DNA of 64,000 nucleotides from Hirudinaria manillensis (taxonomy: Eukaryota; Annelida; Clitellata; Hirudinida; Hirudinidae), in assembly GCA_034509925.1 (NCBI GenBank), contig CM067534.1, positions 4,648,501 to 4,712,500 on the forward strand. Reading direction: 5' to 3'. The translations under genes were made by a program, and so were the position numbers. The notes under the pieces were generated by a model, which did not search any database, was not told the origin of the DNA, and saw only the letters and a program-made list of their open reading frames with translations. This document shows, piece by piece, positions 31,264 through 43,600 of the stretch. Position 1 is the first letter of the stretch, and the number at the start of each line of letters is the position of its first letter.

Positions 31264-31338
31264 CTGTGATATGCTTGTCATTCGTTGATTCTTTTGAGTC
31301 TTAAAGTGGCTGCACCTAAGATGTCTTGTTATATTATT

Positions 31339-31344
31339 AATAAA
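31339..31344 (+). terminator. Polyadenylation signal of TXNDC15
   Basis: AATAAA 76 bases after the TXNDC15 stop codon on the same strand. Confidence 0.65.
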
Positions 31345-31413
31345 TGTTTTGTAGATAAGGTGACTTATTGTATATCAAGAACACAATTAAGTAAAGTTTG
31401 GGGTGAGTTCTGG

Positions 31414-31790
31414 TGAGCAATTTGCCAGAACTTGGTATTTTCCACTAGATCTGGCTTTTTTGGCCTCCAACTGTGCATTTTTTGACTACCTACATCTTTC
31501 TCAGGATAGTGGGACTTGTCAAATAACTATTTGAGTCTGCAGAATCAGCTCCTCATTAGGTTTGAAATGTGAAACACTGAATGTCTTCAAAGTGAGGGTC
31601 TTGCAACTCGAAAGTCATTTGGAGGTTTCTGCTTATTCCACTGCAAAAGGGGAAAAAAGAAGGAAAGGAAACACTGGGGCATTTGTAATGCCAACTGGAT
31701 TTAAGATGTGCTTCAGTTGTGATTTTGTCAAAAAGCGAGGGAGTGTCAAAGCTCCTATCAATTAGCTCTTGCAATCTAGCCAACGATTTA
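31414..31790. repeat. Head segment of tandem repeat unit, copy 1
   Basis: Starts with a segment containing GCCAGAACTTGG and TTTTCCACTAGATCTGGC that recurs at about 33768 and 35289. The three copies keep the same order of motifs (CAACTGTGCATTTTT, CTTTCTCAG, GAGTCTGCAGAA). This copy lies right after the TXNDC15 polyadenylation signal and is the most diverged. Confidence 0.85.
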
Positions 31791-33017
31791 TAGTGTAGCT
31801 ATATCACTCAGCAGAGGGTATTGGTATAAAACTGATTTCTCAGGGGTAGTCTGGAATTGTCGACACTGCAGTAAAGTCGTAAACGTATTTATCATTGAGC
31901 AAGTCGTCTCGCTCCGTCCAGTTATTCAACTGACATTAATTAACTATCTACCAGCAATTTTGTCGATTTTATCAGGCGCCAGAGCCTTAATAAATTTGTT
32001 GTTAAGTTTTGATTATTCATCCATTAATGGAAAAGGTTGCATGACTACAATATTTTTGAAATGGTATTATTCTCACTTAATATTCCTATCCTTATATAAT
32101 ATCAATATTTTGCGCCTCGGAAGACTACTCCACCATCGCAACCTCAATATTAATGAAGGCTCATAATCTGTTTGGAATTTGTTTGATTTACATATATACG
32201 TATTTACGTATAAACCAAATTGAATAACCACCTTCATTATCCGCTGACCGTGAATTACGTGTCTTCCCTACTTCGCACATTCCAAATATCTCATTGCTTA
32301 GAGACAAACAAACTTTTCTGTACAAGCAATTGGCATCCAAATTGGAGAAGTGAAGAATTTACATTGTGAAGTTCTTCACTTGAAGACTTTAGGAAAGCAA
32401 TGACCTATTGAAGAAAATTCCAGAGAATAGAACTCAAATCCTCTGAATATCTAAGTCCTATTAGTGATTTAAGCCTCTGCAACGTAATAGTTCACGATTT
32501 TGCTTTACGTACCATCCCAGAATTCTTTGTTATTGTGTCGTCCAGAATCCGTGTCTCAGTCACAGGCTGCACTTCCCCAACGATCGAATCATCAAGACAT
32601 GGAATTCTTTATCCAAGATATCATTAGCTACGTAATATTGTCATTAAGTTTTAAATCTTGCATTTCATCCACAGATTTAAATAAGTAATCGTAAATCCAT
32701 TTTCGCGTTTAATGATTATATACGTTGTACAAACTTGTTTCAATGGTTATTAAATAATCTTTCAACTTATTGAGATAAATTAATATAATATAATGCTGCA
32801 ATTAAAAGTTTAATGCTAATGATTTTCATTTTTCAATTTTAAATTTAGTAAACTATTGTCTTTTTAATGCGAAATGTCAAAACAAGGAAATTAATTGATT
32901 TTTTCGTTTATATTGGTTATCATAAAAACATGATGAAGCTCGTCAATATGCATTGATAAGTTTAAAAAGAGGACTTGTTTTAGTCCATAGTCCTCAATGA
33001 CTGCGATAAACTTGAAG
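31791..33017. other. Spacer inside repeat unit 1, partly unique
   Basis: About 31850-32350 appears to be extra sequence absent from units 2 and 3, because head-to-gene distance is about 1.6 kb here against 0.77 and 1.07 kb there. From about 32390 it again matches the other units (AATAGAACTCAAA, GATTTAAGCCTCT, then near-identical sequence from about 32735). No coding signal. Confidence 0.6.
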
Positions 33018-33479
33018 TTAATCTTCCATGTTAATCTTTGCACCGCACTTGATTCTCGACAAATTTTCCAAGCTCCTTGATTTCATTCTGGACAAATTTT
33101 CAAAGCTGCGTGATTTCAATCTATTCAGAGAGTTTGTGACTCGATCTTTCAAAGAAGGTCTCTCGTCAACGTGCAAGGATTGCATCGAATTATGGAAGGT
33201 TTTCACTACCTTCTTACCGTTTATTTGGTCTTTATGCCTGTTGGATTCGTAGTAAATCCAAGTCCTTTCCCGTTTGTAGCGCAAACGCGTGTCTGCCAAA
33301 CAGTATTGATAAAATAAGAGCGTGTACATCGTATTCCTGAGCATGCACTCCTTCGAGAGGCTCTTGTGTGAGTGCTTAGCCAATTTTGCATACGTACTAT
33401 TGATGAGGTCTTCGACAAAAGCTGATGACTTTTTGAAGTCCTTCTTACTGAAGGAAACTTTTTTGCTCTTTCCAAACAT
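33018..33479 (-). CDS. Small intronless gene, tandem family member 1 (unknown function)
   Basis: 153 codons with a true ATG. I do not recognise it. The N-terminal half is basic and predicted largely helical: KKDFKKSSAFVEDLINSTY, a short loop, then KECMLRNTMYTLLFYQYCL. The C-terminal part holds a duplicated 11-residue motif, KSRSFENLSRM then KSRSLENLSRI, each with several possible phospho-serines in basic context. There is no signal peptide or transmembrane segment, so a soluble intracellular, perhaps nuclear, protein is likely. Two near copies (34538-34999, 36360-36824) and one distant relative (37862-38398) lie alongside in the same orientation. Differences among copies are mostly single amino acids and none breaks the frame, which argues for selection as a protein. 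Confidence 0.75.
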   Translation of the reverse strand: MFGKSKKVSFSKKDFKKSSAFVEDLINSTYAKLAKHSHKSLSKECMLRNTMYTLLFYQYCLADTRLRYKRERTWIYYESNRHKDQINGKKVVKTFHNSMQSLHVDERPSLKDRVTNSLNRLKSRSFENLSRMKSRSLENLSRIKCGAKINMED

Positions 33480-33600
33480 TCTTGGAAATTATCACCGCTG
33501 ATTGATTTGACCGAGCTGCTTTGTTACTCGTCCATTGGAATGGCGCTCCGACGTATGGAAAAAAGATTCTGAATATTAATAAAAAAATTAATTAAAAATT
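33480..33600 (-). promoter_or_regulatory. Conserved upstream region of family member 1
   Basis: The 100 or so bases upstream of the ATG are almost the same in all three tandem copies. They include GGAATGGCGCTCCGACG and an AT-rich GAATATTAATAAAAA block about 90 bases before the start, which is TATA-like on the coding strand. The AT block also recurs ahead of the diverged fourth gene. Confidence 0.5.
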
Positions 33601-33767
33601 TAGTTTTTTTTTCAATTTTTTAAAATTAGTTGTTATTGTTATTCTTTCGAAATAGTTCCAATAACTTTAAATGTAGATCATATTATTCCCTATTATTAAT
33701 GAACATTTTCTAAATTATGTGAGTTATCACATATCAGGCAACCAACTAAATATACTTTAGATGTCTT

Positions 33768-33960
33768 GAGCAATTTTACCAGAACTTGGAGTTTTCCACT
33801 AGATCTGGCTGTTTTGGATACAAACTGTGCATTTTTGGACTCTCTACGCCTTTCTCAGAGCAATGGGATTTGACAAAAAAAAAGCCTGAGTCTGCAGAAG
33901 AAGCCAACAGTTTCTGGTATTGCTAGGGCAGAAGATAATGGTATAAGAATAATTTATGGA
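33768..33960. repeat. Head segment of tandem repeat unit, copy 2
   Basis: Matches the heads at 31414 and 35289. Relative to those it lacks about 300 bases: the match jumps from GAGTCTGCAGAAGAAGC directly to CAACAGTTTCTGG. This accounts for the unit 2 spacing of 1520 bases against 1822 for unit 3. Confidence 0.85.
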
Positions 33961-34537
33961 TTACAGGGGTAGTCTTACCTGGTCGCGTGAAGACTCAAGG
34001 AAATCCTATTGAAGAAGACTAAAGCGAATAGAACTCAAAAACCCTGTACATCGACGTCTTATTAATGATTTAAGCCTCTCCCTAAGATAAAAACTTCACC
34101 AATCGCACGCTGCACTTCCCCAACAATCATATCATCAAGACATACCCCGATAGCTTTAGGAAGGTATTAAATCTTGTCCTTCATCCATAGATCTAAATAA
34201 TTAATCGTTTCGTAATTCCTTTTTTCGCGTTTACTGTTTGTTGTACAAATTTGTTTCAATGGTTATTAAATAATCTTTCAACTTATTGAGATAAAAAATA
34301 AAACATAATATAATGCTGCAATTAAAAGTTTAATGCTAATGATTTTCATTTTTCAATTTTAAATTTAGTAAACTATTGTCTTTTTAATGCGAAATGTCAA
34401 AACAAGGAAATTAATTGATTTTTTCGTTTATATTGGTTATCATAAAAATATGATGAAGCTCGTCAATATGCATTGATAAGTTTAAAAAGAGGACATGTTT
34501 GAGTCCAGAGTCCTCAATGACTGCGATAAAATTGAAG

Positions 34538-34999
34538 TTAATCTTCCATGTTAATCTTCGCACCGCACTTGATTCTCGACAAATTTTCCAAGCTCCTTGA
34601 TTTCATTCTGGACAAATTTTCAAAGCTGCGTGATTTCAATCTATTCAGAGAGTTGGTGACTCGATCTTTCAAAGAAGGTCCCTCGTCAACGTGCAAGGAT
34701 TGCATCGAATTATGGAAGGTTTTCATTACCTTCTTACCATTTATTTGGTCTTTATGCCTGTTGGATTTGTAGTAAATCCAAGTCCTTTCCTGCTTGTAGC
34801 GCAAACGCGTGTCTGCCAAACAGTATTGATAAAATAAGAGCGTGTACATCGTATTCTTGAGCATGCACTCCTTCGAGAGGCTCTTGTGTGAGTGCTTAGC
34901 CAATTTTGCATACGTACTATTGATGAGGTCTTCGACAAAAGCTGATGACTTTTTGAAGTCCTTCTTACTGAAGGAAACTTTTTGGCTCTTTCCAAACAT
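34538..34999 (-). CDS. Small intronless gene, tandem family member 2 (unknown function)
   Basis: 153 codons, differing from member 1 at only about six residues (for example KSQKV for KSKKV, MLKNT for MLRNT, DEGPS for DERPS), so about 96% identical. Same intronless layout, same duplicated KSRS-ENLSR motif, same upstream region (35000-35105). It sits 1520 bases from member 1, which is the repeat period. The frame is intact and begins with ATG. Function unknown; the high identity indicates recent duplication or gene conversion. Confidence 0.75.
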   Translation of the reverse strand: MFGKSQKVSFSKKDFKKSSAFVEDLINSTYAKLAKHSHKSLSKECMLKNTMYTLLFYQYCLADTRLRYKQERTWIYYKSNRHKDQINGKKVMKTFHNSMQSLHVDEGPSLKDRVTNSLNRLKSRSFENLSRMKSRSLENLSRIKCGAKINMED

Positions 35000-35105
35000 T
35001 CTTGGTAATTATCACCGCTGATTGATTTGACCGAGCTGCTTTGTTACTCGTCCATTGGAATGGCGCTCCGACGTATGGAAAAACGATTCTGAATATTAAA
35101 AAAAT
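35000..35105 (-). promoter_or_regulatory. Conserved upstream region of family member 2
   Basis: Nearly identical to the region upstream of member 1, including GGAATGGCGCTCCGACG. The AT block is slightly altered (GAATATTAAAAAAAT). Confidence 0.5.
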
Positions 35106-35288
35106 AATTAATTAAAAAATTAGTTTTTTTTAATTTTTTAAAATTAGTTGTTAATGTTATTCTTTCGAAATAGTTCCAATAATTTTAAATGTAGTTTATA
35201 TTATTCCCTATTATTTATGTAAATTCTCCAAATTATGTGAGTTACCATATATCAGGCAACCAACTATACTTTAGATGGTGCGATGCCA

Positions 35289-35735
35289 TGAGCAATTTTG
35301 CCAGAACTTGGAATTTTCCACTAGATCTGGCTGTTTTGGATACCAACTGTGCATTTTTGGGACTATCTACGTCTTTCTCAGAGCAATGGGATTTGACAAA
35401 AAAGTCTGAGTCTGCAGAAGAAGCGTCTCACTAGATTTGGATTATGAAATACTGGAGGTTTCAAAGTCAGTGTATCTCGTAATTTGCAATTCGTTTAGAG
35501 GTTTCTGTTCATTCCAAGCAAAAAAAAGGGAGAAAGAAGGAAACAGTAGACTCCTGGGCATTTGTAATGCCAACTGAATTTAAGACTTTCTTGAGTAGTG
35601 AATTTGTCAAAAAACAAGGGAATGTCAAAGTTTCTGCCAATTAGCTGTGCAAGAATTCGGCCGTCGCATGGCTACTAGCCGGCTCTTACAAGCTAGCCAA
35701 TAGTTTCTGGTATTTCTATGGCAGAAGATAATTGT
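35289..35735. repeat. Head segment of tandem repeat unit, copy 3
   Basis: Full-length head like copy 1 (GCCAGAACTTGG, CACTAGATCTGGC, GGCATTTGTAATGCCAACTG, AAGGGAATGTCAAAG). It ends in CAATAGTTTCTGGTATT, the point at which copy 2 resumes. Confidence 0.85.
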
Positions 35736-36359
35736 GTAAAAATAATTTATGGATTACAGGGGTAGTCTTTCCTGGTCGCATGAAGGCTCAAGGAAATCCT
35801 ATTGAAGAAGACTACAGCGAATAGAACTCAAAACCCCTGTACATAGACGTCTTATTAATGATTTAAGCCTCTCCCTAAGATAAAAACTTCACCAATCGCA
35901 AGCTGCACTTTCCCAACAATCGTATCACCAAGACATACCCCGATAGCTTTAGGAAGGTATTAAATCTTGTCCTTCATCCATAGATCTAAATAATTAATCG
36001 TTTCGTAATTCCATTTTACGCGTTTACTGTTTGTTGTACAAATTTGTTTCAATGGTTATTAAATAATCTTTTAACTTATTGAGATAAATTAATAAAACAT
36101 AATAGAATGCTGCAATTAGAAGTTTAATGCTAATGATTTTCATTTTTCAATTTTAAATTAAGTAAACTATTGTCTGCTTAAAAGTCAATAGCGAAAAGTC
36201 AAAAACAAGAAAATTAATTGATTTTTTCGTTTATATTTTATTATATTTTCGTACATTGGTTATCATAAAACATGATGAAGCTCATCAATATGCATTGATA
36301 AGTTTAAAAAGAGGACATGTTTGAGTTCAGAGTCCTCAATGACTGCGATAAAATTGAAG

Positions 36360-36824
36360 TTAATCTTCCATGTTAATCTTTGCACCGCACTTGATTCTCG
36401 ACAAATTTTCCAAGCTCCTTGATTTCATTCTGGACAAATTTTCCAAGCTGCGTGATTTCAATCTATTCAAAGAGTTTGTGACTCGATCTTTCAAAGAAGG
36501 TCTCTCGTCAACATGCAAGGATTGCATCGAATTGTGGAAGGTTATCATTACCTTCTTACCCTGTATTTTGTCTTGATGCCTGTTGGATTCGTAGAAAATC
36601 CAAGCCCTTTCCTGCTTGGAACGCAAACGCGTGTCTTCCAAACAGTATTGATAAAATAAGAGCGTGCGCATTGTGTTCTTGAGCATGCACTTCTTAGAGA
36701 GGCTTTTGTTTGAGCGTTTAGATTTTAATTTTGCTTGCGTGGTATTGATGAGGTCTTCGATAAAAGCTGATGACTTTTCGAAGTCCTTCTTATTAAAGGA
36801 AAGTTTTTTACTTTTTCCAAACAT
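36360..36824 (-). CDS. Small intronless gene, tandem family member 3 (unknown function)
   Basis: 154 codons, the most diverged of the three tandem copies but clearly homologous throughout: FGKSKKLSFNKKDFEKSSAF, KCMLKNTMRTLLFYQYCLED and SLKDRVTNSLNRLKSRSLEN. The duplicated KSRSLENLSR motif is retained, and the C-terminal SRIKCGAKINMED is identical in all three. Changes cluster in the middle (KLKSRSNKSLSKK, ERAWIFYESNRHQDKIQG). A conserved upstream block lies at about 36880-36965. Function unknown. Confidence 0.75.
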   Translation of the reverse strand: MFGKSKKLSFNKKDFEKSSAFIEDLINTTQAKLKSKRSNKSLSKKCMLKNTMRTLLFYQYCLEDTRLRSKQERAWIFYESNRHQDKIQGKKVMITFHNSMQSLHVDERPSLKDRVTNSLNRLKSRSLENLSRMKSRSLENLSRIKCGAKINMED

Positions 36825-36879: not shown

Positions 36880-36965
36880 GATTTGACCGAGCTGCTTTAT
36901 TACTCTTTCGTTGGAATGGCGCTCCGACGAATATAAAGAAAAGATGCTGAATATTAATAAAAAGA
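36880..36965 (-). promoter_or_regulatory. Conserved upstream region of family member 3
   Basis: Carries GGAATGGCGCTCCGACG and GAATATTAATAAAAA like member 1, but lies farther from the ATG because about 30 bases of AT-rich sequence are inserted next to the start. Confidence 0.45.
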
Positions 36966-37861: not shown

Positions 37862-38398
37862 TCACATGAACTCCCATCTACTTTTCCTCACTGAGTCAAA
37901 AAAATCATCTTTTAATTTAGGATTCTTCTTCTTAGGTTGAGATCTCAAATGAAACGAGTCGTCGCAGGGTGTCTTTCTCTTCAACGACTTAGACCTTCCA
38001 TTGGTCAAGGTAGACGTTTTTAGAGTTTTGCCTTTATCTTCCTCGTCCTCCTCATCATCACCTGATGATGAAGATGACGACGACGACGACGATGACGATC
38101 CGTCCGACGAGTCGCTGGAACTGCCGGACGTTTCATTACCCTGGCTTCCTATTCCGGGTGTGCCGCTGGCCTGGGTTGCGTTGGGAGCTTCGGCAGTGAA
38201 ATTCATTCCTTCGGTCAACGTGGCTTCGAAAACCATCAAAGACGTGAATGTATTGTTGAGCAAGCACATCTTATGAAGGTTTAGCTTCTTGTTCGTCACC
38301 ATTTTGAAAATGGTGGTCTGCTTCAGGTCTCTGACGAATTCTAAAGTTCGGTTAATGTCTCCCTTTGTGTAAGAATTGTTTTCGTTATTATTGAACAT
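37862..38398 (-). CDS. Diverged intronless family member 4 with acidic Ser-rich tail
   Basis: 178 codons, ATG start. The first 55 residues align with the tandem family: KGDINRTLEFVRDLKQTT against KKDFKKSSAFVEDLINST, then LHKMCLLNNTFTSL against LSKECMLRNTMYTL. After that the protein is different: a Ser/Gly/Thr-rich stretch, a run of 12 Ser, GDDEEDEEDK, and Lys/Arg clusters (KSLKRKTP, QPKKKNPKLK) that look like nuclear localisation signals. The Ser run sits in a CGA/CGT-like repeat (38060-38100 on the plus strand). The shared N-terminal block with unrelated C-terminal tails suggests the N-terminal helices are the functional domain. Function unknown. Confidence 0.7.
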   Translation of the reverse strand: MFNNNENNSYTKGDINRTLEFVRDLKQTTIFKMVTNKKLNLHKMCLLNNTFTSLMVFEATLTEGMNFTAEAPNATQASGTPGIGSQGNETSGSSSDSSDGSSSSSSSSSSSSGDDEEDEEDKGKTLKTSTLTNGRSKSLKRKTPCDDSFHLRSQPKKKNPKLKDDFFDSVRKSRWEFM

Positions 38399-39569
38399 TT
38401 TCGGTTATATTCTCTGACTTGAAAAATTTGAGTAGGTTTTCGATGATTTTTGTATATTTATTTGTTTGAATATTTCGTTTGTCTTGAGATATTTTTTTTA
38501 TCGAGGTACAAAATTAGGCGCCAAAAAAAGATATCGAATATTAATAAAAACTGTTATTAATTTCGTGTTTTTAATTAATTAAAATTTTGTCAAATAAATT
38601 TTTAAAAAATTTAATTAAATAAAATTTAAATAAATATAAATATATGAATGACCTGCAACGGAGTTGAAATGAAGTCCGAAGGACCGTCGACGATGTTGGA
38701 AAGGTCGTCTGAAACCCGTATCGGTTAACACCGGGCTTGTGGCGCAATGGATAACGCGTCTGATATATATAAACATATTTATTTAATTATTTAAGAGAGT
38801 AAATCTTATTCGGTGATTAATATTTCACGATAATGAATTAATTGAGGCAATAAAATCGGAATAAAATGCGCTTAAATTATTAACGTTTAATACTGAACTT
38901 TCAAACAGAGCGATTATGTCCAATTTATGTCCAATTTCCATGTTTTTTTTCTGTAAAATAACTTATAAATAATAAAAAAAAGCGCTGCAAAAGACACCGA
39001 ACGTTACCAAAGATAATAAATATAATACAGATAATAAAACTTCTCTTGGATTTTATGTAAAACACAGAAAATGGAACCTGTCTTTGATTTGGCTTTACAA
39101 ATTCTGAGTATTATGTTTTATTATTTCTTAATAAAATGTTTTCCCTATTTAGACAGTTAAATATTAGTTTATTAATTTATTATATTTATAATAAATAAAC
39201 TTAGTAATTCCTGTATTATTGGTCTCGCATTAAATCAGTGGACAATCAAATAATTCTTAGAGAGACAGAAGAGTGTTTTATTAGACAACGAGGATATGTG
39301 CTCGAATTTTTAGCTGTAACAAATATTTAAACAAAGTGATAAATATTTACAATTCTGTAGAATAACTAAATTGATGAAGTAATGATTCAATTACTTGTTC
39401 AGTAGCTCGGGCACTTTTTGTACTCGAAGCATTTGTACTTGGTCTCACATTAAGAAACAATGTTGAAACACGATTGAAACGTGCCTTTACATCCCCTTGG
39501 GATAACATTGCGCACGTAAAATATTGGACAAATAAATGTAAATGTAAACATGTTTTGATGTTGCGTTCC
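38399..39569. other. Spacer with an upstream AT element and a tRNA fragment
   Basis: Contains GAATATTAATAAAAA (about 38537-38551), also found upstream of the tandem genes, and the tRNA-Arg fragment listed separately. The rest (38770-39560) is AT-rich without coding signal. Confidence 0.55.
38733..38763 (+). pseudogene. 5' half of a tRNA-Arg gene, truncated
   Basis: Reads GGGCTTGTGGCGCAATGG then ATAACGCGTCTGA: the acceptor 5' strand, full D arm with the A-box consensus, and the 5' side of the anticodon stem of metazoan tRNA-Arg (ACG type). After TCTGA it turns into TATATATAAAC, so the anticodon loop, T arm, B box and 3' acceptor strand are missing. I found no 3' half nearby. It is a relic or a retroposon head, not a working tRNA gene. 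Confidence 0.7.
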
Positions 39570-40670
39570 TCACTGCGTCTCAGCAGATCTTAGAACCACG
39601 GCATCTCTGTGGAAAGGGTGACTTCGATAGCCTTCACTACGGAGTCTCGCACTCGACCTGAACTCTAAAAGTCTGCAAATCATGTCCGTCAAGTGGACGT
39701 CAACTCCTTGGAATTTCTTCAGATGGACGCCAGCACGCATGTTCTTCACCAGTTTCTCACCTGACTCGTCTTTGAAGGGAAACTCCTTCAAGAGACAATA
39801 GTACAGACACACCCCCGTGCTGAAGCAATCGGCTTCGAATCCACATCGTCCGCTGGTGATCATCTCCGGAGCAAAGTAGCGCGTCGTACCGGCCATTCCG
39901 TGTGCCACTCCATTCTCCAAGACACTGCTCAGACCAAAATCGATGACTTTGTAGACACGATTTTCCCACTTTGCCTCGATTAGCGGTGGATAGGTGATCA
40001 TTATGTTGGATAATTTAATGTCTCTATGCACGATGTCCAAAGTAGTCAGATGGCAAAGAGCGCTTGCCATTTGAAGACTGAAAGATTTTATTTCTTCGAC
40101 GAGCATAGACTGCTTCTCCAGCAAGGAAGAAACGTGACCGGCATTGCAATATTCAAAACCCATGTAATGATAGTCAGAGTCGGTGGAATATTCGAGCAGT
40201 TTGACGACATTGTGGTGCTGAACCTGTGACAGTTTTCGAAGAATTTTTAATTCCCTGTCCACTTTTGTCGATCTGCCGATGACTTTAACCGCGAGTTTCC
40301 TCCTCGTCTCGTCGTTTGTGTATCCTTTGTAAACGATGGCGTGGTAACCGATTCCAACTCGATCGTGGAAATGTACACTCATCCCTCCTACTTCGACCAA
40401 CCTATTCAGTTTCGGATTGACAGCATTGACTCGTTGTTGGTTTTCTTTCGATTTGAAGACAACTTTGCCAACGTCTTCGAAGGCGTCGTTGTTTGATTCA
40501 CCGGGGTCAGGAAAATCATTGAAGTCAAATTCTTTGTCTTGGGTTACTTGCTTCGATTTTAAAGAGTCACGGGTCATCGGGTTAATTTTTGGGTGGAGTC
40601 CCGTAATTGAAAGTTGAGAAATACTGTTACAGGGAATTTTGAAAAGAATTTCGTTTTCTTTGTTCTCCAT
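39570..40670 (-). CDS. Intronless Ser/Thr protein kinase with N-terminal KEN boxes
   Basis: 366 codons in one exon. The kinase domain spans about residues 100-355: Gly loop VGIGYHAIVYKG (105-116), catalytic Lys in LAVKVI (about 129), HRDIKLSN (215-222) with the catalytic Asp, DFG in VIDFGLSS (244-246), and FAPEM (266-270) as the APE motif. All key catalytic residues are present. HRDIK marks a Ser/Thr kinase. The 100-residue N-terminal extension has KEN at 4-6 and 75-77 and an RxxL at 34-37, motifs used by the anaphase-promoting complex. Family not recognised; the NIM...VYK...DFG spacing is a little like TBK1/IKK-type kinases, but similarity is weak. The lack of introns, in a genome where other genes have many, suggests origin by retroposition. 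Confidence 0.88.
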   Translation of the reverse strand: MENKENEILFKIPCNSISQLSITGLHPKINPMTRDSLKSKQVTQDKEFDFNDFPDPGESNNDAFEDVGKVVFKSKENQQRVNAVNPKLNRLVEVGGMSVHFHDRVGIGYHAIVYKGYTNDETRRKLAVKVIGRSTKVDRELKILRKLSQVQHHNVVKLLEYSTDSDYHYMGFEYCNAGHVSSLLEKQSMLVEEIKSFSLQMASALCHLTTLDIVHRDIKLSNIMITYPPLIEAKWENRVYKVIDFGLSSVLENGVAHGMAGTTRYFAPEMITSGRCGFEADCFSTGVCLYYCLLKEFPFKDESGEKLVKNMRAGVHLKKFQGVDVHLTDMICRLLEFRSSARLRSEGYRSHPFHRDAVVLRSAETQ

Positions 40671-43600
40671 TGAGCTTCCTTCAAATGAAATTTATATTCA
40701 AACGAAAGTAAAATTAAAAATGGAATTTAAATCTCAAATTGTTCAAAATAAAATTAAATAATTTTTTATGTGTTCCACGTTTTTATTTGTTTCTGTCTAG
40801 TTCGAAGTTCTTGGATTGGAATAAAAGATTTGAATCTTTTCTGATCTTTTGCTTTTTTTAATTTTAAAGTAATTTTTACAACTTTATTAAATTGCAATTT
40901 GGTAATTTGGCAACAATTTTTTTTACACTAATTCTTTGAAAACGTAGTAATATAAATATTAAATTTATTGTTTCCTAATTAATGGCTAATGTATGAACCT
41001 AAATTTGAAACTTTTTTTGACCAAATTATGCAGAAAATCTAAAATTTGGGGCACTTCATAATCAATCTACCTCAAGTTTTATGGGGCACTTGTCAAATTG
41101 CACTAATTACTTACTATTGGACGATTATAATAACAATAATAATAATAATAATAATTTTTTATAATCGTTAATGAATTATTAATGATATTATAATTATACG
41201 TGCATATGTAATTAGCTGAGAATGTCAAAGGTTAACATCGGAACTTTTCATTGACTTAAAAAGGCAACAGCTGCCCGAATAAGGAAAAGATTTTTTAAAA
41301 AATTTAAAGAAATCGATTCGAGTGTTCGGATCTATTTTTAGAAATGGAGGAATTTTAAATATTCCACCTGGGTGAGATAATGAGAATACTCGGAGAGTGA
41401 AGGATATTCAGTCACGTGGTTACTAGAAGTAAATGTTTTCTACTCTTTACTTCGTCATTAATAATAATACTAATAATAATAACAGCTTTGAATTATAATG
41501 AAGCTACTTATTATTCAAAATGAGCTCATGAATTATTAATTAGCGATTATAATATAATATAACAGTAATTACTTTTAAAGCAATTCTTGGTCGGCACGGT
41601 GGGAATGCTTTTAGTTTAGTAATTGTTGCTTAATTGTTGTAAATAAGAAAAGAAGCTTTTAAAATATTCGATAAAAACGGGCTGTGAATCACTTGTGACG
41701 ATTAGAAATAAAAACTTCAGTTGAAGTTTACCGAGTGAGCGCCAAATAAGTGGGACAACTTTTTTGAGATCAGAACATCTTTTCCTGGTAATGAATGCCA
41801 GGAATTCTCAATTAACATCTTTGACGAGTATAGTTTAGTTTTTTTATAAAGCGAGTAAAACAATACTTAAGCCATGAATGTATTTCACTTAGTTCCGTCA
41901 CCACGAATACCCCGCAATACCCAAAGCACGAGAGATAAGCATGGAGTATATTAGCAATTAGTTTATCAATCCATTTCCGTGCTCAATGATGATTGGATAA
42001 CAAAAATAGAACGCTGGGACTAAATTGAGATATGCCAAGAATTCTACAAGTTAAGGCGGAACAGTTGTCCGAAACTTCAAGACCCGCGTGAAATAAAGCG
42101 CCATATAAATGAGAGTCTTGTTCGGATTTAGGATCTTCTGATTGTTTATTTGTTTTTCTTTTGCTCCCTTAAAAATATTTCCTCTTCAACTTTTTCCTCC
42201 AAACGGCCGGTCTTAGGGGAATCGTTGTTTACATACCTACCGTTGGAAAAGCGCGCCAAATATTTGATAAGCTAACCCTTATGGCAATGAAGACGATGAT
42301 GATGATGATGATGATGATAGCTTGGGTGGTAATGATGATAATGATGATAACTTTGGTTGCATTGGTGATGGCTCAGTTGATAACCTGGATGGTTATGATG
42401 ACGATGATGTTGATAAAAGATGGATTTGTAAAATTTCTGAATGATAAGTAGACGGTGATATTCAGTAATAAGTGGATTTAGTAGGTGGAATGCTGGAGTG
42501 TGTTGTTTTTTTTATGTCAACAATGATTCCTATTCATCGAAACTGTGTCAACCTCAAACTACATTTTTAACCAGAGACGGACAAGGGAAAAAAATTTTGC
42601 AATAAAACAAACTAACATTAACTAGTAATTAAAAAACATAAATTATAATTAAACTAATTAAGAAATTATATTTAGAAAATAAATTAATTAAAGCATAAAA
42701 ATCTGAGTTGAAAGACGGGAGTAAATAAATGTCCATCGATCTGAAATCATGCCAAGAAATGAAGCGCTCAAATATTCAAGGACTTCACGGTCGATTGAAC
42801 CGCCAATTGAACCGATGATTGAAGGGCAGCGACTGTTGTTATTTCGTCAAATGAGGAGGCAAATCCCATTTTCGTCTTCGTCTTCTCCTTTATTTTTCAA
42901 CGTATCGGAATTTCAAACGCGACAGCTATTCGTGTTTCGAGCAGAGAAACTATTTCTATTCTATACTTTTGTTGCACGTCGGATATATTTGGCCATCCCT
43001 CGTAGAAATTCGCCTTCCTTATGGAGGTAGGCAGACAAAACAACCTGGAAAATGTCTTCCTCGCTTCCTTGAAATCAACTGGAACGAAACGGCGTCATGC
43101 GTGACCAAATCGTCGACGATTATTTCATCAATTAGCTTATTTATATTTTAATCAAATTCAATTTAATATCGTCTTTTTAAAAGCAATATTTATATTTTAT
43201 TCGAATAATCACCGAATATGAAGAAGATTTATATTTCCATTTAACCATTGAGCTGTCATTTCTCGTCACGATTCCTCTGACATTCTGACTGCTTCTCTTG
43301 CTCGTCTCTTTCCTTGTACCTGTCCATCCCTCTGCCACGGCTTGCACTCCTCTGGAATGCGGAAATGATGATGGATGGATAGATGGATGGATGGATGGAT
43401 AGCGCCACTTAAGAACAACAGCGCACTTACACGCGCTCACAAGATCACATATAGTAGTACTAGTATATAAAGAGACATAATTGCCTTCCCGGCATGGAGA
43501 TTGCGATACAAAAAGCAAATTAATTTCTATTTTTTTCAAATTGCAAGTTGTAAAGATTTTCTTCGAGTCGACATTTCATTTTATTGTTTCATATTTCTAT

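Follow-up and report, generated by a model that had tools for sequence, protein, structure and literature searches.

Animals are generally held to rely on a single set of factors for making mRNA, with a few germ-cell paralogues. The Drosophila testis has duplicated general transcription factors and a use of promoters that is limited to sex cells, and many testis genes are retrogenes; we know of no single core promoter there that is common to the duplicated machinery and to long terminal repeat (LTR) elements. In the mouse, the excerpted text of PMC7755920 describes an oocyte initiation complex of TBPL2 and TFIIA that has its own core-promoter preference and drives oocyte genes together with MaLR LTR retrotransposons. 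Excerpts of PMC11410370 mention male-specific TATA-associated factors in Drosophila and report that ovary promoters of this fly are enriched in the initiator (INR), the motif ten element (MTE) and the downstream promoter element (DPE). Here we describe a stretch of 64,000 nucleotides from the leech Hirudinaria manillensis (assembly GCA_034509925.1, contig CM067534.1, positions 4,648,501 to 4,712,500; the window), which holds a tandem array of three small intronless genes. Collectively, our results suggest, with a probability of roughly 0.7, that this array is one unit of a genome-wide, retro-derived and co-regulated class of intronless genes that is often tandemly amplified and has a dedicated core promoter.

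Results

The genome was searched at the DNA level with the repeat units of the array. The first unit gave six matches elsewhere in the genome. All fall in one block that lies upstream of the array ATG, and all six precede other open frames. The second unit gave a single short spacer match on C5, where the motif described here is absent. The 15-mer of the block, TATTCAGAATCTTTT, has 449 exact sites in the genome compared with 2 for the reversed control, and a longer form of the motif has 98 sites compared with 0 for its control. Within the window, matches with 0-1 mismatches were found only before array copies 1-3, where the motif lies no more than ~250 bp before the ATG of a single-exon coding region whose frame is intact from ATG to stop. 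Window matches with up to three mismatches numbered ten, which is equal to chance (mean 9.25).

To characterise what follows the motif, 56 of the exact sites were read. Forty were chosen from 100 sites listed on chromosomes 1-3, a sample in which same-strand pairs ~5.3 kb apart were mostly represented by their first member only, and 16 came from the 98 longer-form sites. Twenty-one were set aside as LTR-retrotransposon-like on the basis of flanking similarity and inspection by eye. At every one of the remaining 35 sites, which represent 29 distinct promoters and near-copies of them, an uninterrupted ATG-started frame begins 30-213 bp downstream. The frames are at least 114 amino acids (aa) long at 34 sites; the other is a complete Elf1 protein of 81 aa. 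At random window positions, whose composition was unmatched, a frame of at least 100 aa starting 20-350 bp away was found in 174 of 2000 cases (551 bp) and 230 of 2000 (1201 bp).

Proteins that act on mRNA are prominent behind the motif. Pfam matches above cut-off included transcription proteins (TFIIF-alpha, TFIIF-beta, TFIIS, Elf1 and the Spt5 NGN domain), capping enzymes (mRNA cap guanine-N7 methyltransferase and RNA cap guanine-N2 methyltransferase), further RNA proteins (XRN, metallo-beta-lactamase/beta-CASP, a CCCH protein, SF3A3, MIF4G and an RRM protein) and others (ubiquitin-conjugating enzyme, HECT, protein kinases, CCHC proteins and a homeodomain). Thirteen of the 18 types above cut-off act, or plausibly act, in the making, maturing, turnover or translation of mRNA. 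The assignment of the metallo-beta-lactamase/beta-CASP protein to the CPSF type is our own reading, as would be labels such as PABPN1, CPSF100 or eIF4G for class members. The scan covered the motif-site frames other than L099, L100, L101 and L104; in it, L055, L056, L087, L102, L108, the gag-like frame of L067 and the array had no Pfam match, and a THAP match fell below cut-off (E value 8.6e-5). The homeodomain frame behind the shared promoter is in L110 (C10:8253192-8253752).

Tandem amplification recurs among these genes. TFIIF-alpha was found at 24 places on C11 (7335919-7395445; L044, L045, L092-L095), most of them in open frames, in an array with 23 exact motifs and a period of ~1.71 kb. 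Of the 11 copies in L044 and L045, six encode 438-441 aa and one 393 aa, and another is incomplete because the stretch ends within it; the exact motif lies 125 bp before the ATG in all 11. Other arrays of motif sites, of which one site each was read, belong to Elf1 (20 sites, mostly ~743 bp apart), to an Elongin A-like gene (9 sites, mostly ~1.3 kb apart) and to a kinase on C6 (11 sites). In addition, TFIIF-alpha has matches in two adjacent pieces on C3, in one of which a stop is read through, and XRN has matches in four pieces on C11. These split homologues are apparently intron-bearing. Two genes found by domain rather than through the motif, XRN on C2 and an outlying TFIIF-alpha copy (L092), carried the motif with 1 mismatch.

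The sequence around the motif is organised on both sides. The A+T content is 83-92% upstream and 45-65% downstream. Of the 23 upstream regions, 13 contain the box TTAATTAA, compared with a mean of 2.2 and a maximum of 7 in shuffles. Eight of its 19 occurrences start 19 to 22 bases ahead of the motif (-19 to -22). TATAAA (5 of 23 regions, 10.4 expected) and TATATA (1 region, 8.3 expected) are both rarer than in shuffles. Downstream, CCTCGA occurs in 9 of 34 regions, and six of these have it at index 21-22, where shuffles gave 0.3 on average and 3 at most. Neither TTAATTAA nor a CG-containing downstream element is present in all class members. Array copy 1 has both, its downstream element carrying GTCG rather than CCTCGA. 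The arrangement of TTAATTAA upstream and CCTCGA downstream suggests a dedicated core promoter, and transcription would start, in an initiator-like manner, at the A of TTCA in the block.

LTR-retrotransposon-like sequences, which are of at least two types, carry the motif block as well. The 21 LTR-like sites comprise a cluster of 12 with alike flanks, a second cluster of 5, and L057, L058, L075 and L088. The names gypsy and copia for such sites are our own reading of integrase-like and gag-like frames rather than the output of a tool. In the larger cluster TTAATTAA also lies ahead of the block (by eye), and the one gag-like frame tested, that of L064, has an N-terminal SAP domain. The gag-like frames of L064, L065, L079, L080 and L082 begin with MGPKIL. 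In L089 (C2:14223717-14225017) the motif of an LTR-like sequence stands 287 bp before a kinase frame, making this gene a candidate LTR-driven retrogene.

The block contains CAG, and T-rich stretches lie ahead of it in some genes, so it might be read as a splice acceptor (TATTCAG/AATC) that follows a spliced leader or a 5' untranslated intron, in which case the genes would only seem intronless. However, conservation runs beyond the CAG (AATCTTTT), the 20 bases upstream have no clear pyrimidine tract (A 0.37-0.43, T 0.45-0.49), TTAATTAA peaks at a set distance and, in 6 of 34 regions, CCTCGA keeps a constant spacing. In the LTR-like sequences, moreover, an acceptor at this place would be expected to remove the 5' end of the element RNA. 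A core promoter fits better because the spacing is fixed on both sides of the motif and because LTR-like elements use the block, and we give little credence to the acceptor.

Several observations weigh against the proposed promoter class. Only 9 of the 35 frames reach a stop in the fetched stretch; the other 26 run off its end, and later introns are possible there. L057, L058, L075 and L088 have no long frame and were classed as LTR-like by their flanks alone; counted as genes, they would lower the proportion of sites with frames to 35 of 39. The gene set is mixed, with kinases, HECT, E2, homeobox and unknown proteins, and the figure of 13 of 18 stands without a genome-wide background of functions. 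TFIIA alpha/beta (E value 7e-8), Elongin A (0.004) and RPAB4 (0.066) are below the Pfam cut-off; for the 67-aa protein labelled RPAB4, FtrD-like scores better (0.0066) and is likewise below it. Three of the 11 TFIIF-alpha copies checked are short (36-110 aa). The C6 XRN frame (949 aa open) has no motif with up to 2 mismatches in the 361 bases spanning its start. Start sites, co-expression and tissue are all inferred from sequence. Finally, a search for the cap N7-methyltransferase returned only two tandem, motif-bearing, single-frame genes (C2:13153163-13155742) and no split copy. This may be a housekeeping gene needed in the soma too, or a further copy may have been missed; replacement by a retrogene is possible.

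The cap N7-methyltransferase without another copy looks like an ordinary housekeeping gene, as would be expected if the block were a general leech core promoter element and its link to intronless mRNA-machinery genes an accident of sampling, and the sites read are 56 of 449. Yet a general element should not be confined to 449 exact sites genome-wide, part of them LTR-like (21 of the 56 read), nor be followed by uninterrupted frames at all 35 other sites read; and the 64-kb window, with several other genes, has its 0-1-mismatch matches at the array only. We consider a general element quite improbable and the dedicated promoter class the better account.

The array itself was recovered as the sequence-only reading had described it, as three minus-strand genes of 153-154 codons that begin with ATG and have no internal stop (Table 1). 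The start-to-start spacings of 1520 and 1822 bases agree with the periods given there. Copies 1 and 2, said to differ at about six residues, are separated by 6 nonsynonymous and 4 synonymous changes, and copy 3, rightly called more diverged and still open, encodes a protein 85% identical to that of copy 1. The absence of a known domain also held, in that no Pfam match above cut-off was obtained for any of four proteins (copies 1-3 and the neighbouring open reading frame 4, ORF4). The C-terminal part of the array proteins contains a repeated KSRSxENLSR stretch (33-bp repeat). By eye, the flank 3' of the stop codons is conserved (window 32850-33017 and the equivalent places of copies 2 and 3) and contains inverted repeats, GAGGAC...GTCCTC and ATCAATGCATATTGAT-like.

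Table 1. Features of the array locus, with positions counted from the first base of the window.
Feature	Position	Strand	Description
Spacer-like stretch past copy 1	31332..31767	+	diverged array spacer, 75-79% identity, without gene copy
Array gene copy 1	33018..33479	-	153 aa, intronless
GTCGGA, copy 1	33547..33552	-	downstream, index 23; near the CCTCGA/GTCG position of other class promoters
Motif TATTCAGAATCTTTT, copy 1 (C9:4682059)	33561..33575	-	exact; 96 bp before ATG; proposed core promoter
TTAATTAA box, copy 1	33588..33595	-	20 bp upstream of motif start
Array gene copy 2	34538..34999	-	153 aa, intronless
Motif, copy 2	35081..35095	-	1 mismatch; 96 bp before ATG
Array gene copy 3	36360..36824	-	154 aa, intronless
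Motif, copy 3	36939..36953	-	1 mismatch; 129 bp before ATG
ORF4, fourth diverged relative	37862..38398	-	178 aa; shared N-terminal part, Ser/acidic stretch, basic tail
Degenerate motif, ORF4	38526..38540	-	3 mismatches; 142 bp before ATG; TTTTTATTAA precedes, as in copy 1
Single-frame protein kinase	39570..40670	-	one open frame, whole kinase domain; related to kinases of the promoter class

A family of three needs amending, as ORF4 is, judged by its sequence, an additional member. Over residues 1-63 it shares 30% identity with the array protein (E value 3e-4 in the genome search; 0 of 5000 shuffles as good), and its second half differs. By mismatch count its motif does not exceed chance, and it was assigned by its position and by the TTTTTATTAA that it has in common with copy 1. 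In the whole genome (148.4 Mb, 23 contigs), the search with the array protein found no clear family copy beyond copies 1-3 and ORF4, the remaining three matches having E values of 0.79 or worse. The spacer-like stretch past copy 1 is perhaps the older edge of the tandem unit. Of the proposed recent, lineage-specific gene family, what stands is that the genes are tandem, intronless and found at one locus only. It fails for an isolated new family: the upstream block is common to many other single-frame genes and an older relative adjoins the array. Nor are all neighbours intron-rich, as had been stated, since the kinase beside the array is one open frame; by eye, a motif-like GATTCAAATCTTTT lies 166 bp upstream of it, near 40836.

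We estimated the ratio of nonsynonymous to synonymous substitution rates (dN/dS) by the Nei-Gojobori method with bootstrap intervals. The values were 0.34 (0.08-1.63) for copies 1-2, 0.38 (0.18-0.82) for copies 1-3 and 0.35 (0.17-0.75) for copies 2-3. A dN/dS well below 1 had been named beforehand, together with transcripts, as a mark of real genes. In two of the three pairs the upper bound stays under 1, and the interval of pair 1-2 exceeds 1. When the comparison of copies 1 and 3 was restricted to codons 1-90, the interval was 0.17-1.01, touching 1. The aligned coding regions of the three copies contain one 3-base indel and their flanks many. By these measures the copies look maintained, without obvious decay. 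Between copies 1/2 and copy 3, dS is 0.34 in codons 1-65 and 0.08-0.15 from codon 91, and copies 2 and 3 are 94-96% identical in the 3' flank compared with 91% in the coding region. This mosaic pattern suggests gene conversion between copies, and because of this dN/dS is a rough guide only.

An intronless, tandem gene with a promoter block common to LTR-like elements could be an open frame encoded by a transposon, or the copies could be decaying retrocopies. Against this, clear copies are confined to the array locus, and elsewhere the repeat unit matches only in the short promoter block and in the one short C5 spacer match. The check for a transposon frame, proposed in the sequence-only reading, gave no sign of one: PHROGs virus-family matches were weak only, Pfam gave none above cut-off and no relative was found in viral contigs. 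The frames are intact, and the dN/dS bounds for two of three pairs speak against decay. We judge a transposon or retrocopy origin of this kind highly improbable.

The array protein was modelled with AlphaFold2, which predicted helices at residues 12-34, 41-86 and 110-142, with a predicted local distance difference test score (pLDDT) of 74-91 over residues 11-60. The whole model was poor (mean pLDDT 57, predicted template modelling score (pTM) 0.40), and Foldseek found no match to it below 0.001. Residues K32, L41, K43 and C45 are invariant across copies 1-3 and ORF4. In the excerpt of PMC11446282, contacts with B55 are made by K17/L30/L34 of IER2 and by K44/L56/R58/V60 of CDCA4. The array protein might be a divergent IER/SERTA-type helix-loop-helix that recruits or blocks PP2A-B55. 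The predicted helix 12-34, loop and helix 41-86 form a hairpin of the type used by known B55 binders, and the four invariant residues fall at the IER2/CDCA4 contact positions given in that excerpt, L41 starting the second helix; B55 binders of this type have hydrophobic residues at i and i+4, a basic one at i+2 and another basic one in helix 1. None of 100 column shuffles was as good in hhalign against an IER profile, 10 of 5000 shuffles equalled copy 3 in pairwise comparison with the leech IER protein, and the leech genome does have a true IER gene (L008:769-1638 on C3; 289 aa, single frame, Pfam IER E value 4.3e-12). The IER5 chain 8uo5_D was considered at the sequence level.

Other comparisons point away from such a relationship. 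Pfam found neither IER (PF05760) nor SERTA (PF06031) in the four proteins or in three N-terminal parts. The pairwise result was weaker for copy 1 (173 of 5000 shuffles as good) and ORF4 (393 of 5000), and with IER5L added to the IER profile 5 of 400 shuffles were as good, while 7%, 8% and 34% of 452 unrelated windows scored as well as ORF4, copy 1 and copy 3, respectively. Small IER and SERTA models rank the array proteins no higher than background. For SERTA, 14 of 100 hhalign shuffles were as good, and a genome search gave two sub-threshold matches elsewhere. The poor overall model and the Foldseek search without a match below 0.001 count on the same side. We would not place the array protein in IER or SERTA, the statistical support for homology being weak. 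We think this identity unlikely and keep a PP2A-B55-binding, IER/SERTA-like helix-loop-helix as a weak lead to function.

Discussion

In the proposed class, a promoter would consist of an AT-rich stretch, often with TTAATTAA ~20 bp upstream, then TATTCAGAATCTTTT, sometimes CCTCGA, and finally the ATG after ~30-215 bp, with transcription beginning at the TTCA of the block. It is probably used in the germline or early embryo, the most likely setting for a cell type rich in reverse transcriptase. Through retroposition in that cell type, mRNA-making factors would have gained intronless paralogues, which would have come under the same promoter and then been amplified; LTR elements would use this promoter for expression in the same cells. 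We infer retroposition as the origin of the class, L089 being one case in point. The small helix-loop-helix protein of the array would be a member of this programme, perhaps a phosphatase or kinase adaptor.

A start signal common to intronless genes and retrotransposons may point to a second gene-expression toolkit under separate control. More tentatively, it is possible that the class amounts to a second, retro-derived mRNA production line running from initiation to translation, with intronless, in part amplified versions of TFIIA and TFIIF, of TFIIS, Elf1, Spt5 and Elongin A, and of factors for capping, 3' processing, decay, splicing and translation; these factors may read their own TATA-less promoter, which would make the line self-maintaining, LTRs would ride on it and the array would supply a new regulator. 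If true, retroposition would have duplicated a whole expression programme and one promoter sequence would have connected its parts, retrotransposons included. An anonymous gene family would then become a member of a defined regulon, an idea that is directly testable with leech RNA data.

Among described proteins, IER2, IER5 and IER5L and the SERTA proteins, as presented in the excerpt of PMC11446282, resemble the array protein in the predicted helix-loop-helix and in K, L and K at B55-contact positions, and the leech IER gene is also a single open frame. The array protein differs in having no Pfam match, a shorter loop and a different C-terminal part, and any homology is tentative. At the level of the promoter, the Drosophila testis offers duplicated transcription factors, including TATA-associated factors, and retrogenes, whereas the proposed leech core promoter is common to the machinery and to LTRs. 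The Drosophila ovary promoters, as far as the excerpt of PMC11410370 describes them, are similarly TATA-less and combine an initiator with a downstream element whose spacing is fixed; the leech sequences (TTAATTAA, TATTCAGAATCTTTT and CCTCGA) are different, and the leech genes are single-frame. The mouse TBPL2/TFIIA system, in the excerpt of PMC7755920, resembles the proposed leech class in an alternative mode of initiation in which LTR elements have the same promoter type. The mouse system combines a TATA-like preference with a TBP paralogue, whereas TATAAA is rarer than expected in the leech class, and in the leech the promoter-bearing genes themselves resemble factors from initiation to translation, as single frames that often lie in arrays.

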